64,000 nucleotides of DNA, taken from the NCBI RefSeq assembly GCF_036711975.1, contig NC_091968.1, forward strand, positions 25,963,001 to 26,027,000. Reading direction: 5' to 3'. Made by a program: the position numbers and the translations under genes. Source of the DNA: Onthophagus taurus (Eukaryota > Arthropoda > Insecta > Coleoptera > Scarabaeidae). Of the stretch, positions 21,401 through 58,868 are shown piece after piece (position 1 is the first letter of the stretch; each line of letters begins with the position of its first letter). Under the pieces are notes generated by a model, which did not search any database, had not been told where the DNA came from, and saw only the letters and a program-made list of their open reading frames with translations.

Positions 21401-24400
21401 TTAGCATCTTTTTTGACACTTTTAGGTTATACGAAAATGTAGGTTTTGTTTCAACATTTTTTTTCTCAATATTTTTCCAATCCAACCCAACAATTATTAT
21501 ACATCATCTTAAAGAGAAAGCTTTGAGCTTTAATTTAGAGTAAATCTCATTCCTTAATTTCAATAAATACGGATTCCAGGAATTTTTAAATTAGCATCTT
21601 TTTTGACACTTTTAGGTTATACGAAAATGTAGGTTTTGTTTCAACATTTTTTTTCTCAATATTTTTCCAAGCCAACCCAACAATTATTATACATCATTTT
21701 GAAAAGAAAGCTTTGAGCTTTAATTTAGAACAAGTTTTATTCCTTAATTTCAATAAACACGGCTTCCAGGAATTTATAAATTAGCACCTCTTTTGACACT
21801 TTTAGGTTATACCAAAATCTTAATTTTATTTCAACATTTTTTTTCTCAATATTTTTCCAATCCAACCTAACACTTATTATACATCATTTTGAAAAGAAAG
21901 CTTTGAGCTTTAATTTAGAACAAGTTTTATTCCTTAATATCAATAAACACGGCTTCCAGGAATTTATAAATTAGCACCTTTTTTGACACTTTTAGGTTAT
22001 ACCAAAATCTAAGTTTTATTTCAACATTTTTTTTCTCAATATTTTTCCAATCCAACCCAACAATTATTATACATCATCTTAAAGAGAAAGCTTTGAGCTT
22101 TAATTTAGAATAAATCTCATTCCTTAATTTCAACAAATACGGATTCCAGGAATTTTTAAATTAGCACCTTTTTTGACACTTTTAGGTTATACGAAAATGT
22201 AGGTTTTGTTTCAACATTTTTTTTCTCAATATTTTTCCAATCCAACCCAACAATTATTATACATCATTTTAAAAAGAAAGCTTTGAGCTTTAATTTAGAA
22301 CAAGTTTTATTCCTTAATTTCAATAAACACGGCTTCCAGGAATTTATAAATTAGCACCTTTTTTGACAATTTTAGGTTATACAAAAATCTAAGTTTTATT
22401 TCAACATTTTTTTTCTCAATATTTTTCCAATCCAACCCAACAATTATTATACATCATCTTAAAGAGAAAGCTTTGAGCTTTAATTTAGAGTAAATCTCAT
22501 TCCTTAATTTCAATAAATACGGATTCCAGGAATTTTTAAATTAGCATCTTTTTTGACACTTTTAGGTTATACGAAAATGTAGGTTTTGTTTCAACATTTT
22601 TTTTCTCAATATTTTTCCAATCCAACCCAACAATTATTATACATCATCTTAAAGAAAAAGCTTTGAGCTTTAATTTAGAGTAAATCTCATTCCTTAATTT
22701 CAATAAATACGGATTCCAGGAATTTTTAAATTAGCATCTTTTTTGACACTTTTAGGTTATACGAAAATGTAGGTTTTGTTTCAACATTTTTTTTCTCAAT
22801 ATTTTTCCAAGCCAACCCAACAATTATTATACATCATTTTGAAAAGAAAGCTTTGAGCTTTAATTTAGAACAAGTTTTATTCCTTAATTTCAATAAACAC
22901 GGCTTCCAGGAATTTATAAATTAGCACCTCTTTTGACACTTTTAGGTTATACCAAAATCTTAATTTTATTTCAACATTTTTTTTCTCAATATTTTTCCAA
23001 TCCAACCCAACAATTATTATACATCATCTTAAAGAGAAAGCTTTGAGCTTTAATTTAGAATAAATCTCATTCCTTAATTTCAATAAACACTGCTTCCAGG
23101 AATTTATAAATTAGCACTTTTTTTGACACTTTTAGGTTATATCAAAATCTAAGTTTTATTTCAACATTTTTTTTCTCAATATTTTTCCAATTCAACCCAA
23201 CAATTATTATACATCATCTTAAAGAGAAAGCTTTGAGCTTTAATTTAGAATAAATCTCATTCCTTAATTTCAATAAACACGGCTTCCAGGAATTTATAAA
23301 TTAGCACCTTTTTTGACAATTTTAGGTTATACAAAAATCTAAGTTTTATTTCAACATTTCTTTTCTCAATATTTTTCCAACCCAACAATTATTATACATC
23401 ATCTTAAAGAGAAAGCTTTGAGCTTTAATTTAAAATAAATCTCATTCCTTAATTTCAATAAATACGGATTCCAGGAATTTTTAAATTAGCATCTTTTTTG
23501 CCACTTTTAGGTTATACGAAAATGTAGGTTTTGTTTCAACATTTTTTTTCTCAATATTTTTCCAATCCAACCCAACAATTATTATACTTCATTTTAAAAA
23601 GAAAGCTTTGAGCTTTAATTTAGAACAAGTTTTATTCCTTAATTTCAATAAACACGGCTTCCAGGAATTTATAAATTAGCACCTTTCTTGACACTTTTAG
23701 GTTATACCAAAATATAAGTTTTATTTGAACATTTTTTTTCTCAATATTTTTCCAATCCAACCCAACAATTATTATACATCATCTTAAAGAGAAAGCTTTG
23801 AGCTTCAATTTAGAATAAATCTCATTCCTTAATTTCAATAAATACGGATTCCAGGAATTTTTAAATTAGCATCTTTTTTGACACTTTTAGGTTATACCAA
23901 AATCTAAGTTTTATTTCAACATTTTTTTTCTCAATATTTTTCCAATCCAACCCAACAATTATTATACATCATCTTAAAGAGAAAGCTTTGAGCTTTAATT
24001 TAGAATAAATCTCATTCCTTAATTTCAATAAACACGCCTTCCAGGAATTTTTAAATTAGCACCTTTTTTGACACTTTTAGGTTATACGAAAATGTAGGTT
24101 TTGTTTCAACATTTTTTTTCTCAATATTTTTCCAATCCAACCCAACAATTATTATACATCATTTTGAAAAGAAAGCTTTGAGCTTTAATTTAGAACAAGT
24201 TTTATTCCTTAATTTCAATAAACACGGCTTCCAGGAATTTATAAATTAGCACCTTTTTTGACAATTTTAGGTTATACAAAAATCTAAGTTTTATTTCAAC
24301 ATTTTTTTTCTCAACATTTTTCCAATCCAACCCAACAATTATTATACATCATCTTAAAGAGAAAGCTTTGAGCTTTAATTTAGAATAAATCTCATTCCTT

Positions 24401-25562
24401 AATTTCAATAAATACGGATTCCAGGAAGTTTTAAATTAGCATCTTTTTTGACACTTTTAGGTTATACGAAAATGTAGGTTTTGTTTCAACATTTTTTTTC
24501 TCAATATTTTTCCAATCCAACCCAACAATTATTATACATCATTTTAAAAAGAAAGCTTTGAGCTTTAATTTAGAACAAGTTTTATTCCTTAATTTCAATA
24601 AACACGGCTTCCAGGAATTTATAAATTAGCACCTCTTTTGACACTTTTAGGTTATACCAAAATATAAGTTTTATTTGAAAATTTTTTTTCTCAATATTTT
24701 CCAATCCAACCCAACAATTATTATACATCATTTTGAAAAGAAAGCTTTGAGCTTTAATTTAGAACAAGTTTTATTCCTTAATTTCAATAAACACGACTTC
24801 CAGGAATTTATAAAGTAGCACCTTTTTTAACAATTTTAGGTTATACAAAAATCTAAGTTTTATTTCAACATTTTTTTTCTCAATATTTTTCCAATCCAAC
24901 CCAACAATTATTATACATCATCTTAAAGAGAAAGCTTTCAGCTTTAATTTAGAATAAATCTCATTCCTTAATTTCAATAAATACGGATTCCAGGAATTTT
25001 TAAATTAGCATCTTTTTTGACACTTTTAGGTTATACAAAAATCTAAGTTTTATTTCAACATTTTTTTTCTCAATATTTTTTCAATCCAACCCAACAATTA
25101 TTATACATCATTTTGAAAAGAAAGCTTTGAGCTTTAATTTAGAACAAGTTTTATTCCTTAATTTCAATAAACACGGCTTCCAGGAATTTTTAAATTAGCA
25201 TTTTTTTGACACTTTTAGGTTATACGAACATGTAAGTTTTGTTTCAACATTTTTTTTCTCAATATTTTTCCAATCCAACCCAACAATTATTATACATCAT
25301 TTGAAAGAGAAAGCTTTGAGCTTTAATTTAGAATAAGTCTCATTTCTTAATTTCAATAAACACGGCTTCCAGGAATTTTTAAATTAACATCTTTTTTGAC
25401 ACTTGTGTTACTTATTTTCTAACGTAATAAAAAATGTATTATTTTTGTATTAACAATAAAAGTTTTTGTATACTGGATCATCACTAAAATATATCCCCCC
25501 TGAAACGGGGGATTGCATATTTTGCTAAAATTGATTTGACTTTTTGGGACACAAAGGGTTAA
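18415..25562. mobile_element. piggyBac-like nonautonomous element containing a satellite
   Basis: The left end is TTAACCCTTTGTGTCC (18415-18430) and the right end GGACACAAAGGGTTAA (25547-25562), a perfect 16-bp inverted pair. It includes the TTAA target duplication and CCC-type terminus diagnostic of the piggyBac superfamily. Almost all the 7.1-kb interior is a 190-bp tandem array. Unique end sequence is only about 40 bp at the left and about 150 bp at the right, the latter with CCCCCCTGAAACGGGGGATT. No transposase. It lies between the PABP gene and IFT46, ending 73 bp before the IFT46 ATG. Confidence 0.8.
18455..25400. repeat. Satellite array, unit about 190 bp, about 37 copies
   Basis: The marker AAAGCTTTGAGC occurs at 18664, 18855, 19045, 19235, 19426 and so on, a 190-191 bp period. 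Two main monomer types mix. Type A has ACAAGTTTTATTCC, CACGGCTTCC and ATAAATTAGCACC. Type B has TAAATCTCATTCC, TACGGATTCC and TTTAAATTAGCATC with GAAAATGTAGG. Larger blocks recur (for example about 19390-19780 resembles 19970-20340, and about 21480-21900 resembles 22430-23000), so copies arose by repeated block duplication. No open frame crosses a unit. Confidence 0.95.
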
Positions 25563-27160: not shown

Positions 27161-30100
27161 ATGAATTTGATGTTTAGAAAGAATTTTAAGGAACAAAAAG
27201 GTTTTGGGGGGAAGAGCGCCCTTTCAAAGAGTTCCAGTCGTCATACTAATAAAAGAAGCAATCGAGAATCAGGTTATACACCGATAGAGGAACACCATTA
27301 TAGGACCCACTTGTTTTTTAGCCCAAGATGCACGTATACATTAGATGAATCAGAAGGTAGACGCTTTTATTTGTAAAATTAACAATATTCACAAGAAATT
27401 AGACGCCAATTTGTAATAAACATATTTTGAGACCTCTCTAAAGACTGAAGGTCGTCTTAATCTGGCAATGACCACCACTGAATTTAAATAACACTATTTT
27501 TAACCACCCAACTAGTTTTAACCAAATCAAACTAATAAGAAAAAAATTACTAATCATTTCCTACAAGTATTAAGGGAATATCTCATTTTTAGAACCTCGT
27601 TGTGGACCAATGACTGGCCTTTCAGATCAAACAACCCCTTTACAAAGTTATAACTCCGGCTTAACAGGAACGGAATCAGATTATCATCAACCGTTGGTTG
27701 TACGAAGCCCTTCGGTTTCACTTATTAAGTGGCCATCACCAAAAAATACACCTACAAGACAAGTAAGTATCTTTAAAAGAGCCTAAAGTATGATTTTGAT
27801 TAAAAGAAAATAAAATAATATACTTACATTCAAAATTTTGAGGTTATGTCATCCAATCATTAATATTTTAATGTTATATGTACTAATTTTTATATTTTCT
27901 TGCAAATTACCAATAACAATCAATCAAATAACTTCCTTTAATCGTTTTAAATAAAAAGATCTTCAGTTAGAAAGAAAAGTTGCTTGGAAAACGATTTAAA
28001 CTTAATTTTCTCGATTCATATTCTTCTTAAGAGATGGCGCTATAATGCAACAATAATAAAGAAAATAAAAAAAAAATTAATATTTACATTTACACCAAAG
28101 AATTTTTATAGAATATAAATACAAAATTGATTCACACATAAAGTATAATTTTGATTTAAAAAATTAAAATAATATACTTACATTCAAAATTTTGAGGTTA
28201 TGTCATCCAATGATTAACATTTTAATGTTATATGTACTAATTTTTATATTTTCTTAAAAATTACCAATAACGTTCAATTAAATAACTTCCTTTAATCTTT
28301 TTAAGTAAAAAAATCTTTAGTTAGAAAGAAAAGTAGCGTGAAAAACGATTTAAACTTAATTTTCTCGATTCATGTTCTTCTTAAGAGATGGCGCTAAAAT
28401 GCAACAATAATAAATAAAATCAAAAAAAAAATTAATATTTGCATTTACACCAAAGAATTTTTATAAAATATAAATATAAAATTGATTCACACATAAAGTA
28501 TGATTTTGATTTAAAAAATTAAAATAATATACTTACATTCAAAATTTTGAAGTTATGACATCCAAAGATTAACATTTTAATATTATAAGTACTAATTTTT
28601 ATATTTTCTTAAAAATTACCAATAACGTTCAATTAAATAGCTTCCTTTAATCTTTTTAAGTAAAAAAATCTTTAGTTAGAAAGAAAAGTAGCTTAAAAAA
28701 CGATTTAAACTTAATTTTCTCGATTTATATTTTTCTTAAGAGATGGCGCTAAAATGCAACAATAATAAATAAACTCAAAAAAAAAATAATATTTGTATTT
28801 ACACCAAAGAATTTTTATAGAATATAAATACAAAATTGATTAACACATAAAGTATGATTTTGATTTAAAAAATTAAAATAATATACTTACATTCAAAATT
28901 TTGAGGTTATGTCATCCAATGATCAATATTTTAATGTTATATGTACTAATTTTTATATTTTCTTAAAAATTACCAATAACGTTCAATTAAATAACTTTCT
29001 TTAATCTTTTTAAGTAAAAAGATCTCCAATTAGAAAGAAAAGTAGCTTAAAAAACGATTTAAACTTAATTTTCTCGATTCATATTCTTCTTAAGAGATGG
29101 CGCTAAAATGCAACAATAATAAATAAAATAAAAAAAAAAATAATATTTGCATTTACACCAAAGAATTTTTATAGAATATAAATACAAAATTGATTCACAC
29201 ATAAAGTATGATTTTGATTTAAAAAAAATAAAATAATATACTTACATTCAAAATTTTGAGGTTATGTCATCCAATCATTAATACTTTAATGTTATATGTA
29301 CTAATTTTTATATTTTCTTGAAAATTACCAATAACGTTCAATTAAATAACTTCCTTTAATCTTTTTAAGTAAAAAGATCTTCAGTTAGAAAGAAAAGTAG
29401 CTTAAAAAACGATTTAAACTTAATTTCCTCGATTTATGTTCTTCTTAAGAGATGGCGCTAAAATGCAACAATAATAAATAAAATCAAAAAAAAAATTAAT
29501 ATTTGCATTTACACCAAAGAATTTTTATAAAATATAAATATAAAATTGATTCATACATAAAGTATGATTTTGATTTTAAAGTATAAAATAATATACTTAC
29601 ATTCAAAATTTTGAGGTTATGTCATCCAATGATCAATATTTTAATGTTATATGTACTAATTTTTATATTTTCTTAAAAATTACCAATAACGTTCAATTAA
29701 ATAACTCCCTTTAATCTTTTTAAGTAAAAAGATCTTCAGTTAGAAAGAAAAGTAGCTTGAAAAACGATTTAAACTTAATTTTCTCGATTCATATTCTTCT
29801 TAAGAGATGGCGCTATAATGCAACAATAATAAAGAAAATAAAAAAAAATTAATTTTTACATTTACACCAAAGAATTGTTATAGAATATAAATATAAAATT
29901 GATTCACACATAAAGTATAATTTTGATTTAAAAAATTAAAAGAATATACTTACATTCAAAATTTTGAGGTTGTGACATCCAATGATTAACATTTTAATAT
30001 TATATGTACTAATTTTTATATTTTCTTAAAAATTACCAATAACGTTCAATTAAATAACTTCCTTTAATCTTTTTAAGTAAAAAGATCTTCAGTTAGAAAG

Positions 30101-31241
30101 AAAAGTAGCTTAAAAAACGATTTAAACTTAATTTTCTCGATTCATGTCCTTCTTAAGAGATGGCGCTATAATGCAACAATAATAAATAACATAACCTCAA
30201 AATTTGTCAATTTTTTAGGTTAGCTTTAATTATTCCGAACAAAATAACAATAATGAACCATCAAGGAATTTATCGGGATTGGATCGAGATTGTTTCATCA
30301 TTCCAGTACACAGTTTGGAACGATTTTTACCCGCGGGAGTACCAATACCAGTAGGTAAAACCAAAAATTTGTTTGCATTTCCATAATTTTCACGAAATCT
30401 TTTTATTTTACAAAAAAAATAAAAATAGAAACCGAACGCAAATCAACGTGAAAGAAACTCGATTCATGTAATGGAAGTTCCAGATCCAAAATTGTGTGTC
30501 TTATGCCATTTAATGAGCCCCTTGGAACCGATCGACCCAATGATGGAGTCACCTTTATGTCAACCTTTATTGAAACAACGGGTTGCTGCCGGGGAATTAA
30601 TTAGCGAAATTGCACAAGCTAAAACTGCCGTTACCGGAATGTTGTTAGCTAATATGGAAAGAAATGGTAAAAAGTTATGATTTCGTGTGATTAATTTTAA
30701 TTTTATTGTTTTTGTTTTAGCTGAATTTCCTTTTATATCTTATTACGTCATAAATAGCGCGCAAACGAATCCAGTTTTATTTTATAATAATTTAAGATCG
30801 GCTAGTTTATCTAAATTTGATCCGAGACATACTAAATACACAGCGGCCCATACTTTGGATTTATATAGCGAGGTTGCTTCGATATGTCGACCCCCAATTA
30901 ACGAATCAGGCACAAATTTTACTCGAATTAATACTCCAAGTACCGGTTACGTCATCAGCGTTTATAAAGTATTTGAAGGCGACGATAGAGAAGTTTTTGA
31001 AAGAAATTGGTTGTATTGGACGGGGGCCCGGATGATTTACCGTTATTTACCACCCCACGCAGGGCTTAAAAAGATTTCTTTGCACAAATCGGTCAGCCCA
31101 AAAGGTGATAAAATGTATATTTTATTATGCGAGTGTTCGAACTTATTGAACGATGTTACAGTTTGTGCACTTTTATTACCCGCGCTTAGAGCAAGGTTAA
31201 CAGGTTATACCGGATTATTTAGACCCATACAAGCGTTTTGA
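27161..31241 (+). CDS. Conserved protein of unknown identity
   Basis: Five exons join in phase: 27161-27356, 27593-27762, 30219-30350, 30429-30666 and 30721-31241 (TGA), about 418 residues. The start has a good context (TCACCATGA). Residues 1-165 are polar and probably disordered. A compact region follows with FIIPVHSLERFLPAGVPIP, VMEVPDPKLCVLCHLMSPLE (a C-x-x-C pair) and ELISEIAQAKTAVTGMLLAN. The C-terminus is folded-looking and rich in aromatics: RNWLYWTGARMIYRYLPPHA, MYILLCECSNLL and ALRARLTGYTGLFRP. No signal peptide or membrane segment. I do not recognise the family; the regular codon structure and splice sites argue for a real gene. Intron 2 (27763-30218) is filled by a 354-bp tandem array. 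Confidence 0.75.
27787..30190. repeat. Tandem array, unit about 354 bp, about 7 copies
   Basis: ACTTACATTCAAAATTTTGA, TTTAAACTTAATTTTCTCGA and AAGAGATGGCGCT recur once per unit. AGATGGCGCT lies at 28032, 28386, 28741, 29095, 29450, 29805 and 30158, spacings of 353-355 bp. Copies are highly similar. The array occupies nearly all of intron 2 of the unknown gene; no terminal inverted repeats were found around it. Confidence 0.93.
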
Positions 31242-44005: not shown

Positions 44006-47000
44006 CTAATCGAAACACAACGGAACGGAAGAAAATGGAAGTATCGGACAAGTTGTTTCAACGGTTAAGGCGGTTGCCATCGAACTACTCGCGTTTTCAT
44101 GTTCGCCGAGAGCCTCTAAAACCTTCCCCAAATTATACCAAGTGATGTGATTCATCGGGTCGATTTTCGCCGCCTCTCGAAGAGTTGTTTCCGCCAAACC
44201 TTGTAAACTTAAATAGTGATAAACCAAACCCAATTGTTGTAGAGATTTTACGTGTTGTGGATTTATGGCAACGGCGTTTTGAAAGCACAGTTTAGCTTCT
44301 GACCATTCTTGTTTATGCATATGCAATAATCCTTTCTAAAAAGCAAATATGTTAATACTTTTATTAAAACTACATCTTTATTAGAGATGTTAACTTCAAA
44401 ATACTGGAGAACAGGTACAATATGTTGCTGTTTCTAAAAAGTATTAGTTCCAAATACTTGTTACAACTGTTCCTCTGTTCCTAGTGATGTAGTGTATAAT
44501 GTGAAAAATCAAGTATAGTGTTAGTATTATATCTGATGGAGAAAGACGTTATGAATAACAAATATTCCTAATGCATCAAGAATTTATAATCTAAATATAT
44601 TTATTTCATATTTATCTATCACCAATTTCTAGTAATATAGCATAAATCATAAAATGTCAAAACTGGACGATTACTTTTGATAAAATCAAGTATAATGTAA
44701 GTATTAAATCTGATGGAGAAAGACCTTATGAATAACAAATATTCCTACTGCATCAAGAAATCATAATCCATACTTATTTCATATTTATCTATCACCAGTT
44801 CCTAGTGATAAAGCATAAATCGCAAAATGTCAAAATTGGATGATTTTGCTTTATAAAATTAACTATAAAATAAGTACTACAAGTGATGGAGAAAGACGTT
44901 ATGAATAAAAAATGTTCCTAATGGATCAATCAATCATAATCTAGAATTATTTCATATTTATTTGTTACTAGTTTTTTGTGATTTATGCTATAATCATAAA
45001 ATGTCAAAATTGGACGATTTCTCTTCATAAAATCAAGTATAACGTAAGTACTAAATCTGATGGAGAAAGACGTTATGAATGAAAAATATTCTTAATGCAT
45101 CAAGAAATCATAATCCATACTTATTTCATATTTATCTATCACCAGTTTCTAGTGATAAAACATAAATCGCAAAATGTCAAAATTGGGTGATTTTGCTTAA
45201 TAAAATTAACTATAAAGTAAGTACTAAAAGCGATGGAGAAAGATGTTGTCAATAAAAAATGTTCCTAATGCATCAATCAATCATAATCTAGAATTATTTC
45301 ATGTTTATCTGTTAGCAATTTTTTGTGATTTATGCTATAATCATAAAATGTCAAAATTGGACGATTTCTCTTCATAAAATCAAGTATAACGTAAGTACTA
45401 AATCTGATGGAGAAAGACGTTATGAATAAAAAATATTCTTAATGCATCAAGAAATCATAATCCATACTTATTTCATATTTATCTATCACCAGTTTCTAGT
45501 GATAAAGCATAAATCGCAAAATGTCAAAGTTGGGTGATTTTGCTTAATAAAATTAACTATAAAGTAAGTATTAAAAGCGATGGAGAAAGATGTTACCAAT
45601 AAAAAATGTTCCTAATGCATCAATCAATCATAATCTAGAATTATTTCATGTTTATCTGTTACCAGTTTTTTGTGATTTATGCTATAATCATAAAATGTCA
45701 AAATTGGACGATTTCTCTTCATAAAATCAAATATAACGTAAGTACTAAATCTGATGGAGAAAGACGTTATGAATAAAAAATATTCTTAATGCATCAAGAA
45801 ATCATAATCCATACTTATTTCATATTTATCAATCACCAGTTTCTAGTGATATAGCATACATCGCGAAATGTCAAAATTGGGTGATTTTGCTTAATAAAAT
45901 TAACTATAAAATAAGTACTAAAAGCGATGGAGAAAGATGTTATCAATAAAAAGTGTTCCTAATGCATCAATCAATCATAATCTAGAATTATTTCATGTTT
46001 ATCTGTTACCATTTTTTTGTGATTTATGCTATAATCATAAAATGTCAAAATTGGACGATCTCTCTACATAAAATTAAGTATAACGTAAGTACTAAATCTG
46101 ATGGAGAAAGACGTTATGAATGAAAAATATTCTTAATGCATCAAGAAATCATAATCCATACTTATTTCATATTTATCTATCACCAGTTTCTAGTGATAAA
46201 GCATAAATCGCAAAATGTCAAAATTGGGTGATTTTGCTTAATAAAATTAACTATAAAATAAGTACTAAAAGCGATGGAGAAAGATGTTATCAATAAAAAG
46301 TGTTCCTAATGCATCAATCAATCATAATCTAGAATTATTTCATGTTTATCTGTTACCATTTTTTTGTGATTTATGCTATAATCATAAAATGTCAAAATTG
46401 GACGATTTCTTTTCATAAAATCAAGTATAACGTAAGTACTAAATCTGATGGAGAAAGACGTCATGAATGAAAAATATTCTTAATGCATCAAGAAATCATA
46501 ATCCATACTTATTTCATATTTATCTATCACCAGTTTCTAGTGATAAAACATAAATCGCAAAATGTCAAAATTGGGCGATTTTGCTTAATAAAATTAACTA
46601 TAAAGTAAGTACTAAAAGCGATGGAGAAAAATGTTATCAATAAAAAATGTTCCTAATGCATCAATTAATCATAATCTAGAATTATTTCATGTTTATCTGT
46701 TACCAACTTTTTGTGATTTATGCTATAATCAGAAAATGTCAAATTTAGACGATTTTTCTTAATGAAATGAACTATAACGAATGTACTAAAACTGGTGGAG
46801 AGAAACGTTATGAATAAAACATATTCCTAAAGCATCATTGCATTAAGAAGTGTTATACAATAGTATACCATGTATACTATACTTAACCTATATCTATACA
46901 GGTGTCTCAAATGTCTGGATAGCCAATAACTTCGCCATTTGTGGTTATAAAAGAAAAATGTTTCAAATACAAGTTTCTTTATTACTTGTGGCGTATATTT

Positions 47001-50000
47001 TTGGCGTTATTTACTTGTTTGTATTGTTTTCTGTTTCGTTGCTATGGCAACCAACATTGTTATTTTAAATAAGATGCATATATTTTTTTTTGCATACTTT
47101 GATAGGGGATAAATCTCTCTATACGATGAACATATCAAATCATATGATTTAAAATATTAAATCAGCAAATTACAATCAAAGTAGGCGCCGAAATAACGAC
47201 GATGACAGCTTTAAATGCCAAAAAAATGACAGTTTAAACAATTATGAATAATTAATAATGTATGGATACGATTTAATGTAGTTTCGTCATTGGTAGCTGT
47301 CTTCGGCCGTCCACTTTTTGGGAGGTTTTTAACAGTTTCGGTGTTAAAGAATTTTTTTTTAATATTTTCGATACTATGGGTCGTGTAATTTGTGTATCCG
47401 GGTAAATATTACTAAACAGTGTACAAACTTTACTTTGTCGTTCGCTTAATTGCATCATATTTGTTTAAACTGTCAATTTTTTGACATTTAAAGCTGTCAA
47501 CGGCGTTATTTTGGGTGCCTACTTTGATTGTAATTTGCTGATTTCATATTTTCATATAATTTGAGATATTCATCCCGTAGAGGGATTTATCCTCTATCAA
47601 AATATGCAAAAAAAAACATATGCTTGCCATAGCAACGAAACAAAAAACAATGTAAACAAGCAGATATGACCAAAAAATGCGAAACAATTAATAAAGAATT
47701 TTTTTATTTGGAACATTTTTCTTTAAAATCACACTTGGCGAAATTATTGGCTATATTCCAGACATTTGACACACCCTGTATGTATGTTAAGTACAGGGTG
47801 TCCAAATATCGATGGGTTTGCAGGGTATCTCAGTTATTACGAAAGATAGAAAGTTGTGACTTTCGCGAACCTAAGCTACTTTTTTGTGAAACTTACAACG
47901 GCGCAAACCAAATTTTCATAGCCCTCTTCGTTTTTGATATACAGGGAGTGTTTGATATTTACGATTTTCAGACACCTCCTGTATCTCGGCTATCCGGAAA
48001 CTTAGTAGAAAAGTAAAAACGGGTTCTAATAGATTTTTTCACGTGGAATCCAATGGTGCACGTAGAACTTTTCTAGTCATCACGGTTTTTGAGTTATAAA
48101 CAAAACTTAAGTTTTTTTAAATGGAACCACCTATTATATTTTATTTTTTTATTGAACTGGATTTTTTTCAAGCTTTTCAATGATATATAATACTCTATAC
48201 TTACCTTTATAATTAACCTCGAAATTGAATAAAATACATTATTTTATAAGTAGGCAATGATAAATAGACTGCCTAGCCTGACGTCACAGAGATGGGCGGA
48301 GCTTATATCGACTCCAAACAATTTCGTTGCTAACCACAGTTGCTAATGATAAACCGTAATAAAAATGACATTTGAAATGTCATAAAAACTCACTTAGTTT
48401 ATTTTATTTTAACACTAATGGAAAAATTGCATATGGTGATTTACCGTTAGCAACACACTTAGCTATGAAAATGTTTGGAGTCGATATAAGCTCCGCCCAT
48501 CTCTGTTACGTCAAGGCTTAGGTTGTCTATTAAGTGATCGCGTTGCTAGGATACCGGAATAAACAAAGTAAATATAGTTAATTACTGTCAAACTTAATTT
48601 TGAATTTTGTGCTAACAATAAGTCGTGTGTTACTTAATTACCTTTAATTAACTTAACTTAATTATCTTTTTCTTGAAATGGAGCGCAAATGTTAATCAAG
48701 CTGCTGAATTATACATAAATAGGTAGAATGCAACATTTATCAGCAATAACATTTTATTAGCAGATTGTTTCACTTCAGAAATCCAGAAAGAGCGCAACCA
48801 AATTCAAAAATTTTTTTGCGAATAAAGCCTAATTTGATCAATTATGGAAGTTTTTTGATGCCCAGGCCTAAAAAATATAATAAAGAAAATCGGAATAACA
48901 ATGAAATTACCGTGTTAGGATGTGTGGAAGCCGCGCCGAAAACATCATGTAGGGAAATTGAATGTCAAGTTGGAATTAAAAAATCGACAGCCTGTGCGAT
49001 TCTAAAAAAGTATAAATATAAACCCTACAAAGAACAAATAGTTCACCACTTACACCCGGGAGATGCCGAACGACGTTTGGAATTCTGTAACTGGTATTTG
49101 AACCATGCACAAAATAATATTGAATTTAGTTCCTCTATTATATGGTCTGATGAGGCATATTTTACCAGCACAGGAATCTATAATCGTCATAATAACAGGC
49201 ATTGGCATCACGAAAACCAACATATTGTAATTGAGCGGGAGCGTCAAGGAAAATTTGGTTTTAGCGTGGCTTGTTTTATTATTGGGCCACGAATTGTTTA
49301 CAAAATATTTGAAGGAAACCTTTGCGCTAATCGCTATTTGGCCATCTTGCAAGAGGCTTTGCCAGAGATTTTGGATGATATTTCTTTTATTCGGCTAAAT
49401 AATATTTATTTTCAGCAGGACGGAGCTCCCGCTCATAATGCACAGTTAGTGAGTCGCTACCTAACTGCAGAATTTCCTGGTAGGTGGATAGGCACACATG
49501 GTCCAACGCGATGGCCAGCAAGATCACCTGATTTATCTATTTTGGACTTCTTTTTATGGGGATATATCAAGAATCGGGTATATAGTACCCAGAATCGAAC
49601 AAAATTGGAATTGAAAATTGCTGTAACTGATGCTTTTTCACATCCCATAACTATTCTAAATGCAATTAAACGCATTACTAAACTTTGTGAACAATGTGTG
49701 CATCAAAAAGGTAACAACTTTGAACAATTCTTGTAACTTGAAGCCATATTTGCATAATGTTTAGTTTTTAATAATTTTTCGTTTTTAGCAAACAAAATTT
49801 AATAGATACATTTTTTTAATAAGTCAATAATTAATATTATAGTATTTTCAAAATTCTTTGTTTATTCTGGTATCCTAGCAACGCGATCACTTAATTTATC
49901 ATAGCCTACTTATAAAACAATGTGTTTTTTTTAATTTCGAGGTTCATTATAAAGGTAAGTATAGAGTATTATATATCATTGAAAAGCTTGAAAAAATTCT

Positions 50001-53000
50001 AGTTCAATAAAAAAATAAAATATACGTGGTTCCATTTAAAAAAACCTAAGTTGTGTTTATAACTCAAAAACCGTGATGTCTAGAAAAATTCTACGTGCAT
50101 CATTGGATTCTACGTGAAAAAATCTATTAGAACCCGTTTTTACTAAGTTTCCGGATAGCCGAGATACGGGGGATATCTGAAAATCGTAAATTTTGAAATA
50201 CTCCCTGTATATCAAAAACGAAGAGGTCTATGAAAATTTGGTTTGCGGCATTGTAAGTTTCACAAAAAAGTAGCTCAGGTTCGCGAAAACCGCAACTTTC
50301 TATCTTTCATAATAACTGAGATACCCTGCAAACCCATCGAAATTTGGACACCCTGTACAGGGTGGGCAAATTTGGGTGTTATTATAGGCTATCTCAGAAA
50401 CTATAAGAGATACAAAAAAAGTAGGTGCCATGTCCCGGTCTCTTTTTCCGAGACTAATCCAATCCTGTAAAGACCAAATCTCTATCTTCTTTTGTTTTTA
50501 AGTTATAGCCAAAAAGTCAAATTTTAGTGATTTCAAAAAATGCTCATATTTCGTTTATTTTTGAAATTAGAGAAATGGGGTTAATGCATTCTTAAGACAC
50601 TTTTTTGAGTAGAATATAATATAATATTGAAAATTTTTTAAAATAGCTGATCGTTTTTGAGATATAACATAAAGTTGTATTTTTTTAAATACAAACTATA
50701 CTTTATTATGATGTTACTGAAAAGAGTATATTTTTAGCTTTCCAATGATGTATCGCACGCATGATGTTTCTGCGGAAAATAAGCGTTATTTTTCAATTTT
50801 TAAAATATTAAAGATTTAAATTCAAATTTTTAATTATAGTAGGCGAGGAAAACGCTAAATACTACTTAGTTACTATAGCAACGTGAGTTTACTTGTCATT
50901 TCATTCATGAATTTTGCGAAACGAGTTTCCCGTTTAAGAAGTTCCGCATTATCTTTAAATAAAACGATAAAATTAAATATACAGGGTGATTCACATAAAA
51001 ACCGACACAAAGCAGGGACATGTAGAGGACACATTTATTTGAAGTATACTTTTCTCCATCACCTTTAATTTTTGAGTTATGATCTATTTTAATACCAAAA
51101 GTACTCAATTTTAACATTTTAGTGATTTTTTCTTTATCACTAGAAAATCATTATACCTAAACTAAATTTGCTTATGGATGATGTTTTTTTAGTTCATAAT
51201 AAACAATTTATTCATAAAAAACTTTTCTCTATCACCTTTCATCCTTGAGTTATGATCAATTTTAATACCAAAAGTACTCAATTTTGATATTTCGATGATT
51301 TTCCCTTTTTATCATTAGAAAATCATTATAACTAAACCAAATCTGTTTATGAGTATGGTCCTTTTAGTTCATAATAAACAATTTATTTCAAATAAACTTT
51401 TCTCCATCACCTTTAATTTTTGAGTTATGATCTATTTTAATACCAAAAGTACTCAATTTTGACATTTTGGTAATTTTTTCTTTATCACTAGAAAATCATT
51501 ATAACTAAACCAAATCTGTTTATGGATGATGTCTTTTTAGTTCATAATAAACAATTTATTTCAAAAAAACTTATCTCCATCACAATTAATTTTTGAGTAA
51601 TGATCGATTTTGATAACAAAAGTACTATACGTATTTTGACATTATGAGGATTTTCTCTTTATCACTAGAAAATCATTACATCTAAACAAAATCTGTTTAT
51701 CAATAATATCTTTTTAGTTCATAATAAACAATTTATTCCTAAAAAACTTTTCGTCATCACCTTTCATTCTTGAGTTATGATCGATTTTAAAACCAAAAGT
51801 ACTTAATTTTCACATTTTGGGGATTTTCTCTTTATCACTAGAAAATTATTATGCCTAAACTAAATTGGTTTATGGATGATGTCTTTTTAGCTCATAATAA
51901 ACAGTTTATTTCTCAAATTACGTACAATTTCACAGCCGACTACTGTATTTTCTATGATTTTAAGTAGCATTAACAAGATACGCGTCTTTAGTTTTTTGAG
52001 TTTTTTATGAAAACGACAATGTTTTTTAAAAAATAGTAAGAGTAAAAAAAGTTTTAGAATTAAATTCCACATGAAATGAGGTGATAATGTATTAAATCCA
52101 CAAAAAGATTAAAAAAATCTACCAAAATTTAGGAGACCATCACCCGTAATCAACCCTTTCAAATGCGTTAATTGGTCTCAACTTGCTACCAATTAATACC
52201 CTCGGTACACTCATAACGTATACCAAATTTGGTTTTTCTAACTTAATGTATTACGAAGATATTCGATGTTTTAAAAATTTAAGACCCAACTTTGAAGGCC
52301 TATAACTCCTCAGGGGTACAACTTAGTATAGAGATAAGTTGTGTTAAATCGTCTTAATTTATTGTTCTCTACATGTCCCTGTTCTGTGTCGGTTCTTATG
52401 TGAATCACCCTGTAGAATACATTGGAGTCCGCTTTGAAGATGATACATAAGTCTTCATATCCCCATTCAAACGGTGTTTCAATGGAAATTCCACTCCCAG
52501 TTTATGATTCCTAATTTTCCTCTATCTCACCCAATTTTAAAAGAAAAGATTGCTGATATCAAAAAACTTCTACATCTTATGTTTGGGGAAAATTGGGAAA
52601 ATACTACCGAAGATTTCATTCATTGATACCGAGCTGTTCTAATCTTACAACCAGTAAGTTGAGTAGAAAAAGATGACGGTTTATGACTCCTTAGTGCCTG
52701 AAGTTGTCCATATCTAAGTATTCATTAATTAATACATTTCTTGTATTTTTAATAAACAAACTTTAAATGCTAATCATTTTTTATTAGTGAACAAAGTCAG
52801 GGATAAGATGCTGAGAAATTTAAATTAACTATTCAAAGTTTTTATTCGTAGGTACAAAACCAACTTATCCTGAATAATGGTACAAAACCAACTTTATTCT
52901 GTCATATTCGTGCAAAACCATATATTATAGCCACTAGGTAGTATTTACTGTCCGGACACGCCTACTATAATCAAAATTTTGAACATTAGCGCTTACTATT

Positions 53001-56000
53001 TTCGAATTGAAAATTAACGCTTATTTTCTGCAAATACACCATACATGCGATACATCATTGGAAAGCTAAAAATATGCTCTTTCCTTTTACATCATAATCA
53101 AGTATAGTTTGTATTTAAAAAAACACAACTTTGTGTTGTATCTCAAAAATCATCAAGTATATTTAAAACTTTTCAACGGCAGTATATTCTACTTAAAAAA
53201 GTGTCTTAAGAACGTATCAACCCCATTTCTCTAATTTCAAAAATAAACGAAATATGAGCATTTTTTAAAATCACGAAAATTTGTCTTTTTGGCTATAACT
53301 TAAAAACAAAAGAAGATAGAGGTTTGGTGTTTGCGGGATTGGCTTAGTCTCGAAAAAAGAGACCGGGACATGGCACCTACTTTTTTCGTATCTCTTATAG
53401 TTTCTGAGATAGCCTATAATAACACCCAAATTTGCCCACCCTGTACAGGGTGTCCCAATTTCGATGTCCGCATAGACCATCTCCGAAACTAAAAGAGATA
53501 GAAAAAAAGTAGCTTACATGTCATGATCTCGTTTTTCGAGAAAATGCTAATGCCGATAACTCCGAACAGCTATCGTCTTTTGTTTTCGCCCTATCGGCAA
53601 AAACTGAAAATTTTGCAAAAACGACAATCGCGAATATCACACTTATTATCAAAGATGGAGTATTATAAATAAAACATTATATGGGCAATTTTTTACGAAG
53701 AATTCAGTGGCGTAGGTAGAATTTTTTTCCCATCTTTTATTTTCAAGATTTTAGACGTAACTTTATTTTTTTAAATGGAAACCATAGTTGGCTATGACTT
53801 AAAATAATTTGTTATTTTCTTCTGATAACAAATATATATAGTTTGTGGGGTATATTTCTTATAGTTATTGAATAATTAACAACAATTCATTTTGTTCCAT
53901 CTAAATCTAATGTATGTATTTAAAAGTTAATGTTGCTATGGTGATAACTAAGGCACGGAACTTTTGTGACAAAAGAATACGATTTCCCCCCTCCACTTGT
54001 TCTCAGTGGCTTCCTAGAAAACAAGCCAATGAGAACAAGTGGAGGGGGGAAATCGTATCGTTTTGTTACAAAAGTTTCGTGCCCTAGTGATAACCATACA
54101 TACTATGATGGAATATAATGTATCAATTTTTTTTGTTCTTTCTAAAACTATTGTATGTATTTAAAACTTAATGTTGTTATGGTGATAACCATACCATGAG
54201 GGAAAGTATTGTTTCCAATTATTGTCAAAGTTAGTAGCAAGGAGTTTGTAGTAGTATTTAAAAATTCACTAACAACTCTGGCATTATGTGCTGGTGCTCC
54301 GTCATATTGAAAATATATCATTTGAGACATATTTAGTGCCAAATTGTCGACCAAAGGCTCAAGTGCTGCCTTAATATATTGAGGTATTTCTCTGAGTTTA
54401 AGTTTTTATGGTAGATACTATATGGCAAAATTCTATTATCTAAAAGGGCACACCATACATTTGAACCCCAAGCTTCTTTGAACACTCAGAGACTTCTTCG
54501 GTCCAGATAACATTTTGAACAAACAGCAGACTATTTAATTTTTCTAAATATCATCTACAAAATTCTAATCTTCGATTGACATCTCCGGCACGTAAATAAG
54601 GAGTTAGCCCCGCTTTGTATGGTTTATACTTATGTTTCTTTCATATTCGGGAGCAACGGCTTTTGGGTCAGACGTCTTGTTGCAATTTCTCTTGCAGGTC
54701 ATTTTGGTATGTTTTTGTATGTGGTTTGGGGAAGGACCAAATATCTATTAAATTTTCTGTTAACCGGCTGAAGGTTCTTACGTGCGGTTGTCTTCTTTCT
54801 GGATATCTTGTGAAATAAAATTCCGCGGCTAACGTCGCATTCTTATCTGATAACATATAGCATTCCATCATGTTACATTTTTCATAATTTTCGAAATTCA
54901 TTGTAAAGTTTTATTCAGTTTTGTTATATTTTGACACTTAACATGCTGGTGCATCGAACCAGCACATAATGCCAGAGTTGTTATCGAATTTTTAAATACA
55001 AACTTTGGCAATTATTTGATACATTATGTTGCATCATAGTATGTATGGTTATCACCATAGCAACATTAACTTTTAAATACATACATTAGTTTTAGATAGA
55101 ACAAAATGAATTTTTGTTAATTATTCAATAACTATAAGAAATATACCCCACAAATTATATATATTTGTTATCAGAAGAAAATAACAAATTATTTTAAGCC
55201 ATAGCTAACTATGATTTCCATTTAAAAAAATAAAGTTACGTCTAAAATCTCGAAAATAAAAGATGGGAAAAAAATTCTACCTACGCCACTGAATTCTTCG
55301 TAAAAAGTTGCCCATATAATGTTTTATTTATAATACTCCATCTTTGATAATAAGTGGGATATTCGTGAATGTCGTTTTCGCAAAATTTTCAGTTTTTGCC
55401 GATAGGGCGAAAACAAAAGACGATAGCTGTTCGGAGTTTTCGGAATTAGCATTTTCTCAAAAAACGAGATCATGACATGTAAGCTACTTTTTTTCTATCT
55501 CTTTTAATTTCGGAGATAGCCTATGCGGACATCGAAATTGGGACACCCTGTACAGGGTGGTTCAAATTCGATGTCCGAATAGGCTAACTCGGAAACTATA
55601 AGAGTTAGAAAAAAAGTAGCTTACATGTCATGATCTCGTTTTTCGAGAAACTGCTAATGCCGAAAACCTCATAGCGCTATCGTCTTTTGTTTTTCCCCTA
55701 GAGGCCAAAATTGGAAATATCGTAAAACCAGCAAGTGCAATTATCTTCGTTATTATTATAGGTGGAGTATTATAACTAAGACATTATATGGACACTTTTT
55801 TATAGAGAATTGGATGACGTAGTCAAAAAAATTTTTTCGGTTTTAGATTTTGAGATATCATCACAATTTTCGTTTTTTTAAATGGAAACAACCACTGATT
55901 ATTCGCTTATTAAATTCGTTATTTTTTTCTGATTACAAAAATATAGGGTTCGACAGGTCTATTTCTTATTGTTTTAGAATAAAGCCAAAAATAAACTTTT

Positions 56001-58868
56001 TTTTTAAATTTCCATCTAGTGTCATCGACGAAATTAAATTTACAGTTTCCTGTAAATTTAATTGATGTTTGAAACAAATAAATTTGTTGAACTATTTAAT
56101 TTATATATGTTTTACACAAAAGTTGGAATAGATTGCATTATTTCACATTTTTTATTAATATTTAATATTATTATTAAATGACTTAATAAATTATTGATAG
56201 ATGGCGCTCATATATTTTTCTTTTGAATTCAAATAAACATAGCAACATTTGTTTGTATTCAAAAAGTGTCACTTTAAAAATCCTGTAATAATATTAAATA
56301 TTAATAAAAAATGTGAAATAATGCAATCTATTCCAACTTTTGTGTAAAACAAATATAAATTAAATAGTTCAACAAATTTATTTGTTTCAAACATCAGAAA
56401 TTTGTTTTTTTAATTTTTAGTTATAGTACCATAATATACAGGAAACTGTAAATTTAATTTCGTCGATGACACTAGATGGAAATTAAAAAAAAAAGTTTAT
56501 TTTTGGCTTTATTCTAAAACAATAAGAAATAGACCTGTCGAACCCTATATTTTTGTAATCAGAAAAAAATAACGAATTTAATAAGAGAATAATCAGTGGT
56601 TGTTTCCATTTAAAAAAACGAAAATTGTGATGATATCTCAAAATCTAAAACCGAAAAAATTTTTTTGACTACGTCATCCAATTCTCTATAAAAAAGTGTC
56701 CATATAATGTCTTAGTTATAATACTCCACCTATAATAATAACGAAGATAATTGCACTTGCTGGTTTTACGATATTTCCAATTTTGGCCTCTAGGGGAAAA
56801 ACAAAAGACGATAGCGCTATGAGGTTTTCGGCATTAGCAGTTTCTCGAAAAACGAGATCATGACATGTAAGCTACTTTTTTTCTAACTCTTATAGTTTCC
56901 GAGTTAGCCTATTCGGACATCGAATTTGAACCACCCTGTACAATATGATTCGATTCAACTTTTATCTGGGACATTTTTTGAAAAACTCAATCATAATTCG
57001 GCTATGGACCGAGACAACTTAGGTGGGACACCCTGTTATAGTAGAGTGATAGATTTTAAATTTTGTGAAAGTTTATAAAACTAGTATTTAGTACCTATTA
57101 TTTTTTAAATTTTAGTAACTGTTCCAAAGAATAACATACAAATATTTGTTCCAAAGTAACAGTTACAATAAGTATTGGTTAACATCTCTAATAGTTATTT
57201 ACCATATGCATTATGTGATGTGATAAAGGAAAAATTTGAGTTGCTTCTAGAATACATTTCATAACATCTGCAGGTTGATCTAAAGCCAGGTACAATTCAG
57301 CGAGTAATAACCAAATTTCGAGGAGTAACATCCAAGCTCTTTGTGGTCCCGGACGCGGGCTAAAACTACTCATAGAACTTGCAACTTCACTTAAAGCTTG
57401 CTCAACTCGAGATGCAGCAACACTATGAGCTTGTAAAGAACTTGTGTCTTTATCGGACATTTCCGATGTGTATAATTGGAAGACTGAACGAGTATCGCTT
57501 TTTCTATCACATTCTGGAACGTCTGAAATCGTTTGACCTTCATAAAGGGTTTTCCACATTTCCAACATTTGTTTAGCCGTAGTTAAAGCTCTCTAAAAAA
57601 ATCATTAATCAATTAATAATTATTTAAAATAAATTAAAAACGTACATCTCCACCATATTCATGTAGCTCTAAATGCGCTTTAACATACATTAAATTCAAA
57701 CAATCAGGATATTCTTGAAGTGCCGCCTCAACCACAACTAAAGCCTCTTCATGTTGTCGGTTAGCTGATAAAAGTAACGTTAAAAGATGTAAAGTTGAAG
57801 AACTTTCAGGTCGTAAATCTAAAGCTGTTTGTACGTGATGTAAAGCTTCGCGAATTTGACCCACCAACGCTAATTGTAAACCTAAATAATATTCGGCTAA
57901 ATTATCATTAGGTTCCAATTGAACAGCGCTTTGAAAATTATCCAAAGCAGTACTGTTTAAATTAATTTTTTCTTTTTTAATGTTATTTATTTGAGCTTGT
58001 AATTGATAACCTATCCCAATATAGAGATGACAACGACCCAATAGACCACTCAGATGGATTCTTTCCACTTCTAAAGCGGCTTCGCTTAATTTTGTTCCTT
58101 CAACGGGGTCGTTTAAATGTTCATAACAAAGTTTTGCGGCCAAAAGGTTGTTTATCGATTTCGTCGGTTCTAAACGAATCACTTCTTTTAAAACCGACAA
58201 AGCATGTTCGTTACGTCCCATTGAGATTAAACTTAAAGCGTGTTGTTTCCATAAATGCGGTTCGTCGAACGAAAATTTCATCGCTCGTTCCAAAGACTAA
58301 TAAAAGATTCATCAATTTTAAATTAAATAAATTAATATTTCATTAATACATTGTTTTGTTTACTTGATTACCTCTTGTAATAAACTAACTTGGCCCCATT
58401 TAACTGTTGCTAAAGTTAATAAATCATAAACTGCGGCCGCATCTTGAAACGCGCTCCTCCTAGCATCTTTAAACTCGGGACTTTGCGATAAAACCGCGTT
58501 TCGAACTGCAATAGCCTCAGCGATTAATAGAACCAAAATCGTTTCTTCGTACTTGTTTTTTGGGATAAACTGATTTAGGTTTGAGTACTGTTTTGGTTTC
58601 CACGCTGAATCTCGATTAAAAGCCCCCGGTTGCTTGTAATCTAAATCGTTAAAACCTTGTAGAAATAATTCGGCGAGATGACAAAGCAATTTTAAACGTG
58701 CTGTGTGTACTCCTTGGCTTTCAACTGCCATTAGAGAAGATCGGTAACGTTCTATAGCATCTAACGGGGTATTTTTACGAAGGAGTATTACTGGAGATTC
58801 TTGTAGAGCTTGTTCGAGTACTAAAGACATGGTTTTGTGGACTATTGGTGGTAATGGGGAATTGGTAC
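44006..58868 (-). CDS. TTC7: TTC7 (tetratricopeptide repeat protein 7), 3' part
   Basis: Four minus-strand exons: 58372-58868, 57646-58296, 57203-57592 and 44006-44335 (stop), about 621 residues. The first begins with two bases of a split codon, so 5' exons encoding roughly 200-250 residues lie beyond the window. TPR helices are clear: LEQALQESPVILL, ALSVLKEVIRLEPTKSINNL, AEYYLGLQLALVGQIREALH, CFQNAVAINPQHVKSLQQLG and LVYHYLSLQGLAETTLREAA, matching TTC7A/B in order. TTC7 with EFR3 and FAM126/hyccin anchors PI4KA at the plasma membrane (established). The last intron (44336-57202) is 12.9 kb of repeats: a 174-bp array, then a chain of foldback transposons. Exon phases all agree. Confidence 0.92.
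44390..46830. repeat. Tandem array, monomer about 174 bp, dimeric (about 348 bp)
   Basis: GATGGAGAAAGA recurs at 44535, 44712, 44884, 45058, 45232 and onward. Alternate monomers differ: one has GAATAAAAAATATTCTTAAT with CACCAGTTTCTAGTGATAAA, the other CAATAAAAAATGTTCCTAAT with TTTTTTGTGATTTATGCTAT. This makes a two-monomer higher-order unit, about 13 monomers in all. The outermost monomers are more diverged. It lies in the last TTC7 intron. Confidence 0.92.
46899..47778. mobile_element. E0: foldback element with transposase remnant in loop
   Basis: It begins CAGGTGTCTCAAATGTCTGG and ends CCAGACATTTGACACACCCTG with TA on both sides. Arms of about 300 bp are inverted copies (AAATTACAATCAAAGTAGGC mirrored near 47520). 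The loop encodes on the minus strand (47273-47458) a helix-turn-helix-like piece, MQLSERQSKVCTLFSNIYPD then ITRPIVSKILKK, resembling the N-terminus of mariner-type transposases. Confidence 0.75.
48533..49891 (+). mobile_element. Mariner/Tc1-superfamily transposon, apparently complete
   Basis: Inverted ends of about 36 bp start AGTGATCGCGTTGCTAGGAT and differ at one position between the two sides. The target duplication is TA (48531-48532 and 49892-49893). The interior has one long transposase frame in the plus direction. It is inserted in the right arm of foldback E1, so it is younger than E1. Confidence 0.85.
48765..49736 (+). CDS. Mariner/IS630-type transposase
   Basis: The frame is open for 323 codons to a TAA at 49736. 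N-terminal HTH region: RNPERAQPNSKIFLRI then GSFLMPRPKK and SCREIECQVGIKKSTACAIL. Catalytic core: IIWSDEAYF (first Asp), FQQDGAPAHNA (second Asp) and WPARSPDLSILDFFLWGYIK (third Asp), with 36 residues between the second and third Asp. This is the DDxD transposase type common in insects. The true start is unclear: the first in-frame ATG is 48858, but conserved HTH sequence begins earlier. AANTTATACATAAATAG-type sequence just upstream (about 48697-48722) could be a short first exon. No interrupting stop was seen. Confidence 0.85.
   Translation: MFHFRNPERAQPNSKIFLRIKPNLINYGSFLMPRPKKYNKENRNNNEITVLGCVEAAPKTSCREIECQVGIKKSTACAILKKYKYKPYKEQIVHHLHPGDAERRLEFCNWYLNHAQNNIEFSSSIIWSDEAYFTSTGIYNRHNNRHWHHENQHIVIERERQGKFGFSVACFIIGPRIVYKIFEGNLCANRYLAILQEALPEILDDISFIRLNNIYFQQDGAPAHNAQLVSRYLTAEFPGRWIGTHGPTRWPARSPDLSILDFFLWGYIKNRVYSTQNRTKLELKIAVTDAFSHPITILNAIKRITKLCEQCVHQKGNNFEQFL
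50982..52412. mobile_element. Foldback nested in E2 (CAGGGTGATTCACAT family)
   Basis: The ends CAGGGTGATTCACATAAAAA and TTCTTATGTGAATCACCCTG are inverted, with TA on each side. The subterminal GGGACATGTAGAGGACA is mirrored at the other end. A second member lies at 61367-62418. The left interior is a tandem array of about 174-bp units. Confidence 0.85.
51030..51905. repeat. Tandem array, unit about 174 bp, about 5 copies
   Basis: GAGT(T/A)ATGATC recurs at about 51076, 51249, 51424, 51597 and 51773. Each unit has ATCACTAGAAAATCATTA and AGTTCATAATAAACAATTTA. The array lies inside the nested foldback and is absent from its relative at 61367-62418. Confidence 0.88.
52420..52700 (+). pseudogene. 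Decayed coding-like fragment inside E2
   Basis: One frame reads IHKSSYPHSNGVSMEIPLPV (about 52440-52500). Another reads HPILKEKIADIKKLLHLMFG and ENWENTTEDFIH (about 52536-52620) before a stop. Frame changes and stops show it is not a working gene. The family was not recognised; it may be host sequence captured by the foldback. Confidence 0.3.
53446..55550. mobile_element. E3: foldback element with broken transposase in loop
   Basis: It begins CAGGGTGTCCCAATTTCGAT and ends ATCGAAATTGGGACACCCTG. A single TA separates it from E2 and E4. Arms of several hundred bp are near-perfect inverted copies (AGATGGAGTATTATAAATAA mirrored near 55330). A smaller hairpin (TGAGAACAAGTGGAGGGGGG and its inverse, 53990-54050) lies inside. 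The loop carries a degraded mariner-type transposase on the minus strand. Confidence 0.82.
54148..54901 (-). pseudogene. Broken mariner-type transposase in E3 loop
   Basis: Minus-strand pieces in order: an N-terminal YFTRYPERRQPHVRTFSRL (54668-54901), VIWTEE near 54515, and YFQYDGAPAHNARVVSEFL (54148-54354). They lie in different frames with stops between. Similarity in layout to the intact transposase at 48765-49736 identifies the family. Confidence 0.7.
55553..56938. mobile_element. E4: foldback element
   Basis: It begins CAGGGTGGTTCAAATTCGAT and ends ATCGAATTTGAACCACCCTG. TA joins it to E3 at 55551-55552 and follows at 56939-56940. Arms of about 650 bp are nearly identical and meet near 56240-56290. 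The palindrome includes TTTACAGTTTCCTGTAAATT. No coding sequence is visible in the short loop. It shares outer-arm segments such as AACGAGATCATGACATGTAA with E3, 3214-4285 and 35640-36275. Confidence 0.85.
56939..57040. mobile_element. Short remnant of another CAGGGTG-type element
   Basis: About 100 bp between E4 and TTC7 exon 57203-57592 end in GGTGGGACACCCTG, the terminus of the same family. The left end is degraded. Confidence 0.45.

Follow-up and report, generated by a model that had tools for sequence, protein, structure and literature searches.

The closest described relatives of the elements reported here are the aphid LTIR-like DD40/41D transposons (Apismar5, Lsra), which have terminal inverted repeats (TIRs) of 460–466 bp, a length of 2.3–2.4 kb and MITE relatives (PMC5490172). 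They resemble element E1 of the present locus in the 41-residue catalytic spacing, the ∼470-bp TIRs, the size of 2.56 kb and the MITE relatives, whereas the Apismar5 tips, TCACCAATTT... and AATGTGTC..., are unlike those of the E1 clade (PMC5490172). A DD41D family called VS is named in a second paper (PMC8472432). GTAC, matched at word starts, is absent from the main text of both papers, and the accessible text of neither describes end-to-end chains (PMC5490172, PMC8472432). Such an arrangement has been described for SaTar multimers, linear arrays of MULEs in guayule and rice in which unrelated, non-nested elements lie end to end, which was attributed to targeting (PMC5907723). However, SaTar elements are Mu-like and lie at microsatellites, and recombination or circles were proposed for them, whereas the elements described here share a TA inside a palindrome rebuilt by their tips (PMC5907723).

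Foldback/Galileo elements, in the descriptions accessible to us, have very long inverted repeats like those found here, but Galileo belongs to the P superfamily and E1 is of Tc1/mariner type. Among transposons with palindromic targets, IS630, a bacterial element of a related superfamily, inserts at CTAG, a 4-bp palindrome around TA; the target reported here is likewise a 4-bp palindrome, but GTAC and not CTAG. piggyBac, which duplicates its 4-mer target TTAA, resembles our elements in keeping a fixed short palindromic target at both ends but belongs to a different superfamily. We take the family name VS to stand for Visitor. In the accessible parts of the surveyed literature, Tc1/mariner elements, long TIRs and DD41D are already known, as are end-to-end MULE arrays (PMC5907723), and a GTAC-type target in this clade, a rebuilt site that causes chains and the lack of like neighbors are absent. 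Titles and abstracts revealed no GTAC-targeting or chained mariner elements; most subscription journals lie outside this scope, and absence is unproven.

The window, by which we mean the whole 64-kb stretch of DNA that was analyzed (C3:25963001-26027000; 29% G+C), comes from a 290.8-Mb genome in 33 contigs, whose size, tandem arrays and transposon types mark it as eukaryotic and probably that of an insect. As listed in Table 1, copies of the junction palindrome CACCCTGTACAGGGTG at 50349, 53437 and 55544 split the segment 47794–56938 into four elements, E1–E4, each of the form CAGGGTG...CACCCTG with long inverted arms. Single TAs stand at 47792, 50356, 53444, 55551 and 56939, and nothing else lies between neighbors. 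By BLAST, the inverted arms are 90.9% identical over 473 aligned positions in E1 (2,562 bp long), 86.9% over 521 in E2, 96.2% over 503 in E3 and 94.3% over 653 in E4. A sequence-only reading of this DNA had given E1–E4 these same boundaries, had counted a single shared TA per junction, three in all, and had put another element, E0, 15 bp to the left of E1; both descriptions were reproduced. Comparison of the four elements upheld its statement that they are unlike internally and are not tandem copies of one. Rarity of the junction palindrome would have spoken against that reading, but it is common: it was found 59 times in the genome, compared with 0 for its reversed control. From both outer flanks of the chain, the target before any insertion was probably AAG-TA-CAA, that is, AAGTACAA.

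Table 1. Features of the element chain and its left neighbor (positions in the window)
Feature	Position	Strand
E0, a separate element from a different family; tips CAGGTGTC (left, lacking one G) and CACCCTG (right)	46899–47778	
TA at the left end of the chain, after a G (AAG-TA)	47792–47793	
E1, putative long-TIR DD41D element of Tc1/mariner type with transposase frame; arms of ∼470 bp, 90.9% alike	47794–50355	+
E1 transposase open frame, 328 aa	48750–49736	+
E1/E2 junction palindrome; shared TA 50356–50357	50349–50364	
E2, placed in the clade by its outer arms; transposase frame not seen; 86.9% arm identity over 521	50358–53443	
Element inside E2, of another CAGGGTG family; terminal repeats of 61 bp	50980–52414	
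E2/E3 junction palindrome; shared TA 53444–53445	53437–53452	
E3, placed in the clade by its outer arms; arms 96.2% alike over the outer 503 bp; remnant frames on the minus strand	53446–55550	
E3/E4 junction palindrome; shared TA 55551–55552	55544–55559	
E4, long-TIR, MITE-like; no transposase frame seen; outer 300 bp of arms identical	55553–56938	
TA at the right end of the chain, before CA (TA-CAATATG)	56939–56940	

The C-terminal part of the E1 frame matched the catalytic domain of Sleeping Beauty (E=5.7e-06) with all three acidic positions aligned. The predicted triad is D134, D224 and D266, the third D being placed by alignment to Sleeping Beauty, and 41 residues separate the last two (DD41D). 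The N-terminal part gave a weak match to PF01498 (HTH_Tnp_Tc3_2; E=2.9e-05, below the Pfam cut-off), and the first in-frame Met is residue 37; the N-terminus of the predicted transposase may be incomplete. Used as a query against the genome, the frame had 126 hits with E ≤ 1e-10 (of 7,600 candidates, 122 were scored), and four copies elsewhere cover residues 1–328 at 97–98% identity without a stop. By the relatedness of its predicted transposase, E1 is placed in Tc1/mariner (IS630-Tc1-mariner), a placement that applies to E1 only, and its 41-residue spacing, ∼460-bp TIRs and length above 2.3 kb are the marks of a putative DD41D long-TIR (LTIR) element. We also observed a transposase family 35% identical to that of E1, with 13 places at E=3.1e-59 (e.g. 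C1:8302420-8303403) and a 14th at 3.3e-59; all 14 copies have an open frame of 363 aa, and their near-equal E-values and open frames point to a very recent burst. At two loci of this family, four ends have the flank GGATATCATT in common, indicating that the true tip lies further out.

No stop-to-stop frame longer than 85 aa was found within E2–E4. In E3, one minus-strand remnant frame gave a DUF4817 match below the cut-off, and another carries, by eye, the DGAPAHNA motif of E1. The arms of E2, E3 and E4 are 71–80% alike across the outer ∼140–270 bp, and the likeness of the E1 arms to E2 and E3 is confined to the outer ∼20–60 bp; for E2–E4, which have no transposase frame, placement in the clade rests on these ends.

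The word “foldback,” used for these elements in the sequence-only reading, holds as a description of their long inverted arms but not as a family name, the E1 transposase being of Tc1/mariner type. TIRs of the Foldback (FB) family consist of short tandem subrepeats. This family was considered and rejected: the long TIRs are present, but Tandem Repeats Finder reported no short tandem subrepeats in the arms of E1–E4, its only rows inside the chain being 49754–49787 (inner E1), 51033–51912 (the element nested in E2) and 52852–52920 (inner E2). Within the nested element, a 173-bp unit is repeated in tandem ∼5 times; it is ∼65% like the array with 173/347-bp period at 44505–46837, in inverted orientation. 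This transposon thus holds a satellite-like array that, judged from the likeness, is related to the nearby satellite.

We next consider the target site. The tip TACAGGGTG occurs genome-wide 8,277 times forward and 8,197 times in reverse, compared with 392 and 382 for its reversed control, and belongs to many families. We listed 100 TACAGGGTG-type ends with the base before TA left free; the other fixed letters of the pattern excluded E1-type ends. Among these 100, all 18 clade ends were preceded by G (one was admitted with one differing letter), compared with only 2 of the 66 ends of other families that have the same 9-bp tip, 54 of which were preceded by TA; the other 16 were set apart as one larger repeat. 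These 16 are TACAGGGTGTTCCATTTAAA ends on C1 whose flank was TGTAAAAATA in 15 and TTGAAAAATA in 1, and such identical or near-identical flanks place the end within a larger repeated unit.

A 24-bp end pattern of the clade gave 920 + 979 matches and none in the control. In 100 of these ends that were listed, position −1 was G in 94, A in 5 and C in 1, and position −2 was T in 84; as a baseline, the 75 GTACs to the left of the chain in the window have the matching half-site letter in 39 of 150 cases. Among the 19 E1-type loci examined outside the window, all 11 copies with both ends found have G-TA and TA-C flanks. Duplication of TA within GTAC and duplication of the whole GTAC give identical letters, and all 11 copies fit either. 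From these flanks, the target of the clade is TA within GTAC, preferably TGTACA; the missing G in 6 of the 100 clade ends may reflect target slack or decay. Eight of the 100 listed clade ends have a flank like the tip of another element: two of these flank a single junction from either side, three show a tip of the CAGGGTCTGT type, and in the remaining three the tip is mutated.

Because the tips are CA...TG and the target is TGTACA, insertion would leave TGTACA at both ends. We consider it likely, with good confidence, that the locus holds four related DD41D long-TIR elements whose tips rebuild their TGTACA target, that later insertions chained them and that pairs of like elements were lost. 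As inferred from what is known of their family, E1–E4 would move by cut and paste. Read from the sequence, a TGTACA target would become TGTA[CAGGG...CCCTG]TACA, with a fresh TGTACA at each end, and a member of another family that later entered a rebuilt site would produce an end-to-end chain with one shared TA. Junctions within one family would be spacerless palindromes of ∼2x arm length that are lost or broken near the center, which would be why surviving chains join unlike families. The earlier proposal of stepwise insertion into the TA beside an existing copy is the best reading of the chain, but a bare shared TA is insufficient and the target has to be widened to TG-TA-CA. The tip-recreated target word offers a simple, countable cause for transposon chains, with the number of junctions following from the preference.

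We then asked how the families are paired at junctions. There are 56 junctions outside the window, of which 47 were listed, and all 47 were fetched as 611-base stretches. Together with the three of the window, these gave 50 junctions: both sides belong to E1–E4 in 31, one side in 17 and neither in 2. Only 1 of the 31 scored junctions joined like with like, compared with 8.2 expected from label shuffling (P=0.0006); the 31 are not strictly independent, since three come from the window and two may come from one C6 locus. Family labels came from whole arms. By the 15 end letters, no junction joined like with like; with whole arms in their place, some halves, such as one at L098, moved to a different family and several to “other.” Typing by hexamers, which covered 43 of the 59 junctions, gave one symmetric entry, C10:6767594 (L098), which is E3 beside E1 by whole arms. 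The sole like junction joins E4 to E4 at L076, where one side is without 13 bp next to the junction; gapped identities with free end gaps, which mislead for short overlaps, were used only to notice this locus. Facing arms of the E3/E4 type were located at nine loci, eight of them mixed and the ninth L076.

Spacerless near-perfect palindromes are unstable, and off-center deletion is one of their usual escapes. We infer that the depletion of like pairs reflects the loss of spacerless palindromes of ∼2x arm length. The same depletion would be seen if like junctions exist but long perfect palindromes assemble badly. E4, with 510-bp arms that are 99% complementary around a 374-nt spacer, was nevertheless assembled, although spacerless palindromes could still fail, and we regard loss in assembly as a possible but rather doubtful explanation. 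The depletion and the plentiful cross-family pairs would also be expected under target immunity, by which the transposase of a family shields its own ends and only other families can land. But the sole like pair has its deletion beside the center, as repair of a palindrome predicts, and one E1-type transposase only was examined, so that immunity appears unlikely. To our knowledge, target immunity is not established for Tc1/mariner. The fuller proposal, in which tips rebuild their own target and like neighbors are missing through family-specific immunity and not through palindrome instability, as a first case in Tc1/mariner, is to be held quite improbable. The near-absence of like neighbors makes both the speed of palindrome removal and target immunity in Tc1/mariner testable in long-read genomes.

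Besides loss of like pairs, the chain raises the question of whether it is a single composite transposon, mobilized as one unit via its outer ends, which are intact and TA-flanked. Among the 58 of 59 junction places that are known, intact junctions separated by no more than 10 kb occur only in the window and at C6:13137347/13138083, where the pairs are E4-E2 and E2-E1 by end labels, unlike those of the window. The sequence-only reading had held that finding the whole chain elsewhere as one unit would speak against stepwise insertion; no such unit was seen among these places, a comparison that covers intact consecutive junctions. The two sides of the E1–E2 junctions (11 loci; Mantel r −0.25, p 0.97) and of the E1–E4 junctions (7 loci; Mantel r −0.20, p 0.62) were not congruent, and E2–E4 gave Mantel r 0.91, p 0.13, with four loci only. 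The E1–E2 and E1–E4 junctions look to have arisen independently and not as copies of a composite. Elsewhere, four of the nine loci with facing E3/E4-type arms (L143, L144, L145 and L146) do share one junction, in which E4 adjoins an E3 variant with a tip lacking one G (CAGGTG); the outer left flanks differ at three of them, the fourth being partial, and this pair may have spread as a single composite. For the chain in the window, the lack of congruence and the different pairs at C6 make a single composite very unlikely. CAGGTG tips were also seen in E0 and in the E1-type copy L007.

The number of junctions can be compared with that expected from later insertion into rebuilt sites. GTACAGGGTG occurs 1,627 + 1,641 times in the genome (control, 72 + 46). 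We estimated ∼536,000 GTACs in the genome from 101 in the 54,831 window bases outside the chain. A plain-TA insertion model, in which any TA serves equally, was rejected, giving 0.09 shared-TA junctions versus 59 observed; GTAC taken flat gave 4.6, and with the TGTACA weight the expectation was 41 (95% range 22–76, which reflects sampling error alone, the GTAC and flank counts being small samples). With a second estimate of 0.68 million GTACs, from 55 fetched loci rich in element ends, the expected number drops from 41 to 32. Local clustering over all families is approximately threefold (22 outward pairs at 200–230 bp versus 7.2 if uniform), which would raise the expectation to about 120, and the loss of like pairs lowers it. 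The expected number is settled in order of magnitude and not within a factor of two. Target preference alone fits the number of junctions, and no special attraction is needed. Active drawing of insertions to existing ends, by the transposase or by end-bound factors, would account for the excess over the equal-TA figure, but the TGTACA preference already covers that excess, and like ends, expected to be the strongest attractors, are almost never joined; we consider such self-targeting highly improbable.

Close pairs also occur with separate targets. Outward G-type pairs with separate GTACs ≤30 bp apart number 8, compared with 0.26 if uniform, an excess that weighs against the preference-only reading, and only some of them are E1–E4 elements. 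CACCCTGTATACAGGGTG and similar patterns revealed 139 outward end pairs with spacers of 0–30, many of the spacers being pure TA among the 50 listed. By these counts, families that target TA and share this tip also accumulate next to one another. A short-spacer control for like pairing took 40 loci, 7 of the 8 G-type pairs and 33 of the 139 outward pairs, of which 39 were scored; too many families are mixed in them to serve as a comparison. Outside E1–E4, the close pair L103 joins like with like by typed ends, with a 7-bp spacer.

Joined-end circles or concatemers that reinsert, or tandem duplication, have a negligible claim as builders of the chains: a joined-end circle with one TA would, by reasoning only, show the same palindrome, but these routes predict junctions of like with like, which are 1 of 31, and the four elements of the window differ.

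Dating the elements by divergence between their arms, as the earlier reading had recommended, was tried and proved unreliable. Judged from the outer arms, E4 would be the youngest element, with 7 substitutions in 621 aligned positions, and E2, at 86.9%, the oldest; K2P figures for E1, E2 and E3 derived from over-extended arms and were left aside. Across 12 E1-type copies, the one in the window among them, the two arms of a copy were 0.91–0.975 alike, with one outlier at 0.61, whereas the left arms of different copies were on average 0.966 alike; 8 of 532 columns had distinct left and right majorities. Since the two arms of one copy resemble each other no more than left arms of separate copies do, the only order that we read is that E4 probably came late in the chain. 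Divergence between arms is a poor measure of age in long-TIR elements.

Two other features of the window were observed. Four long tandem arrays at 10188–12303, 18457–25404, 27784–30194 and 44505–46837, with periods of 179, 190, 355 and 173/347, together occupy about 13.8 kb. On the minus strand at 57188–58296, about 250 bp to the right of the chain, there are open frames with TPR repeats (TPR_2 match, E=7.5e-11 for 57634–58293), which are presumably exons of a TTC7-type gene.
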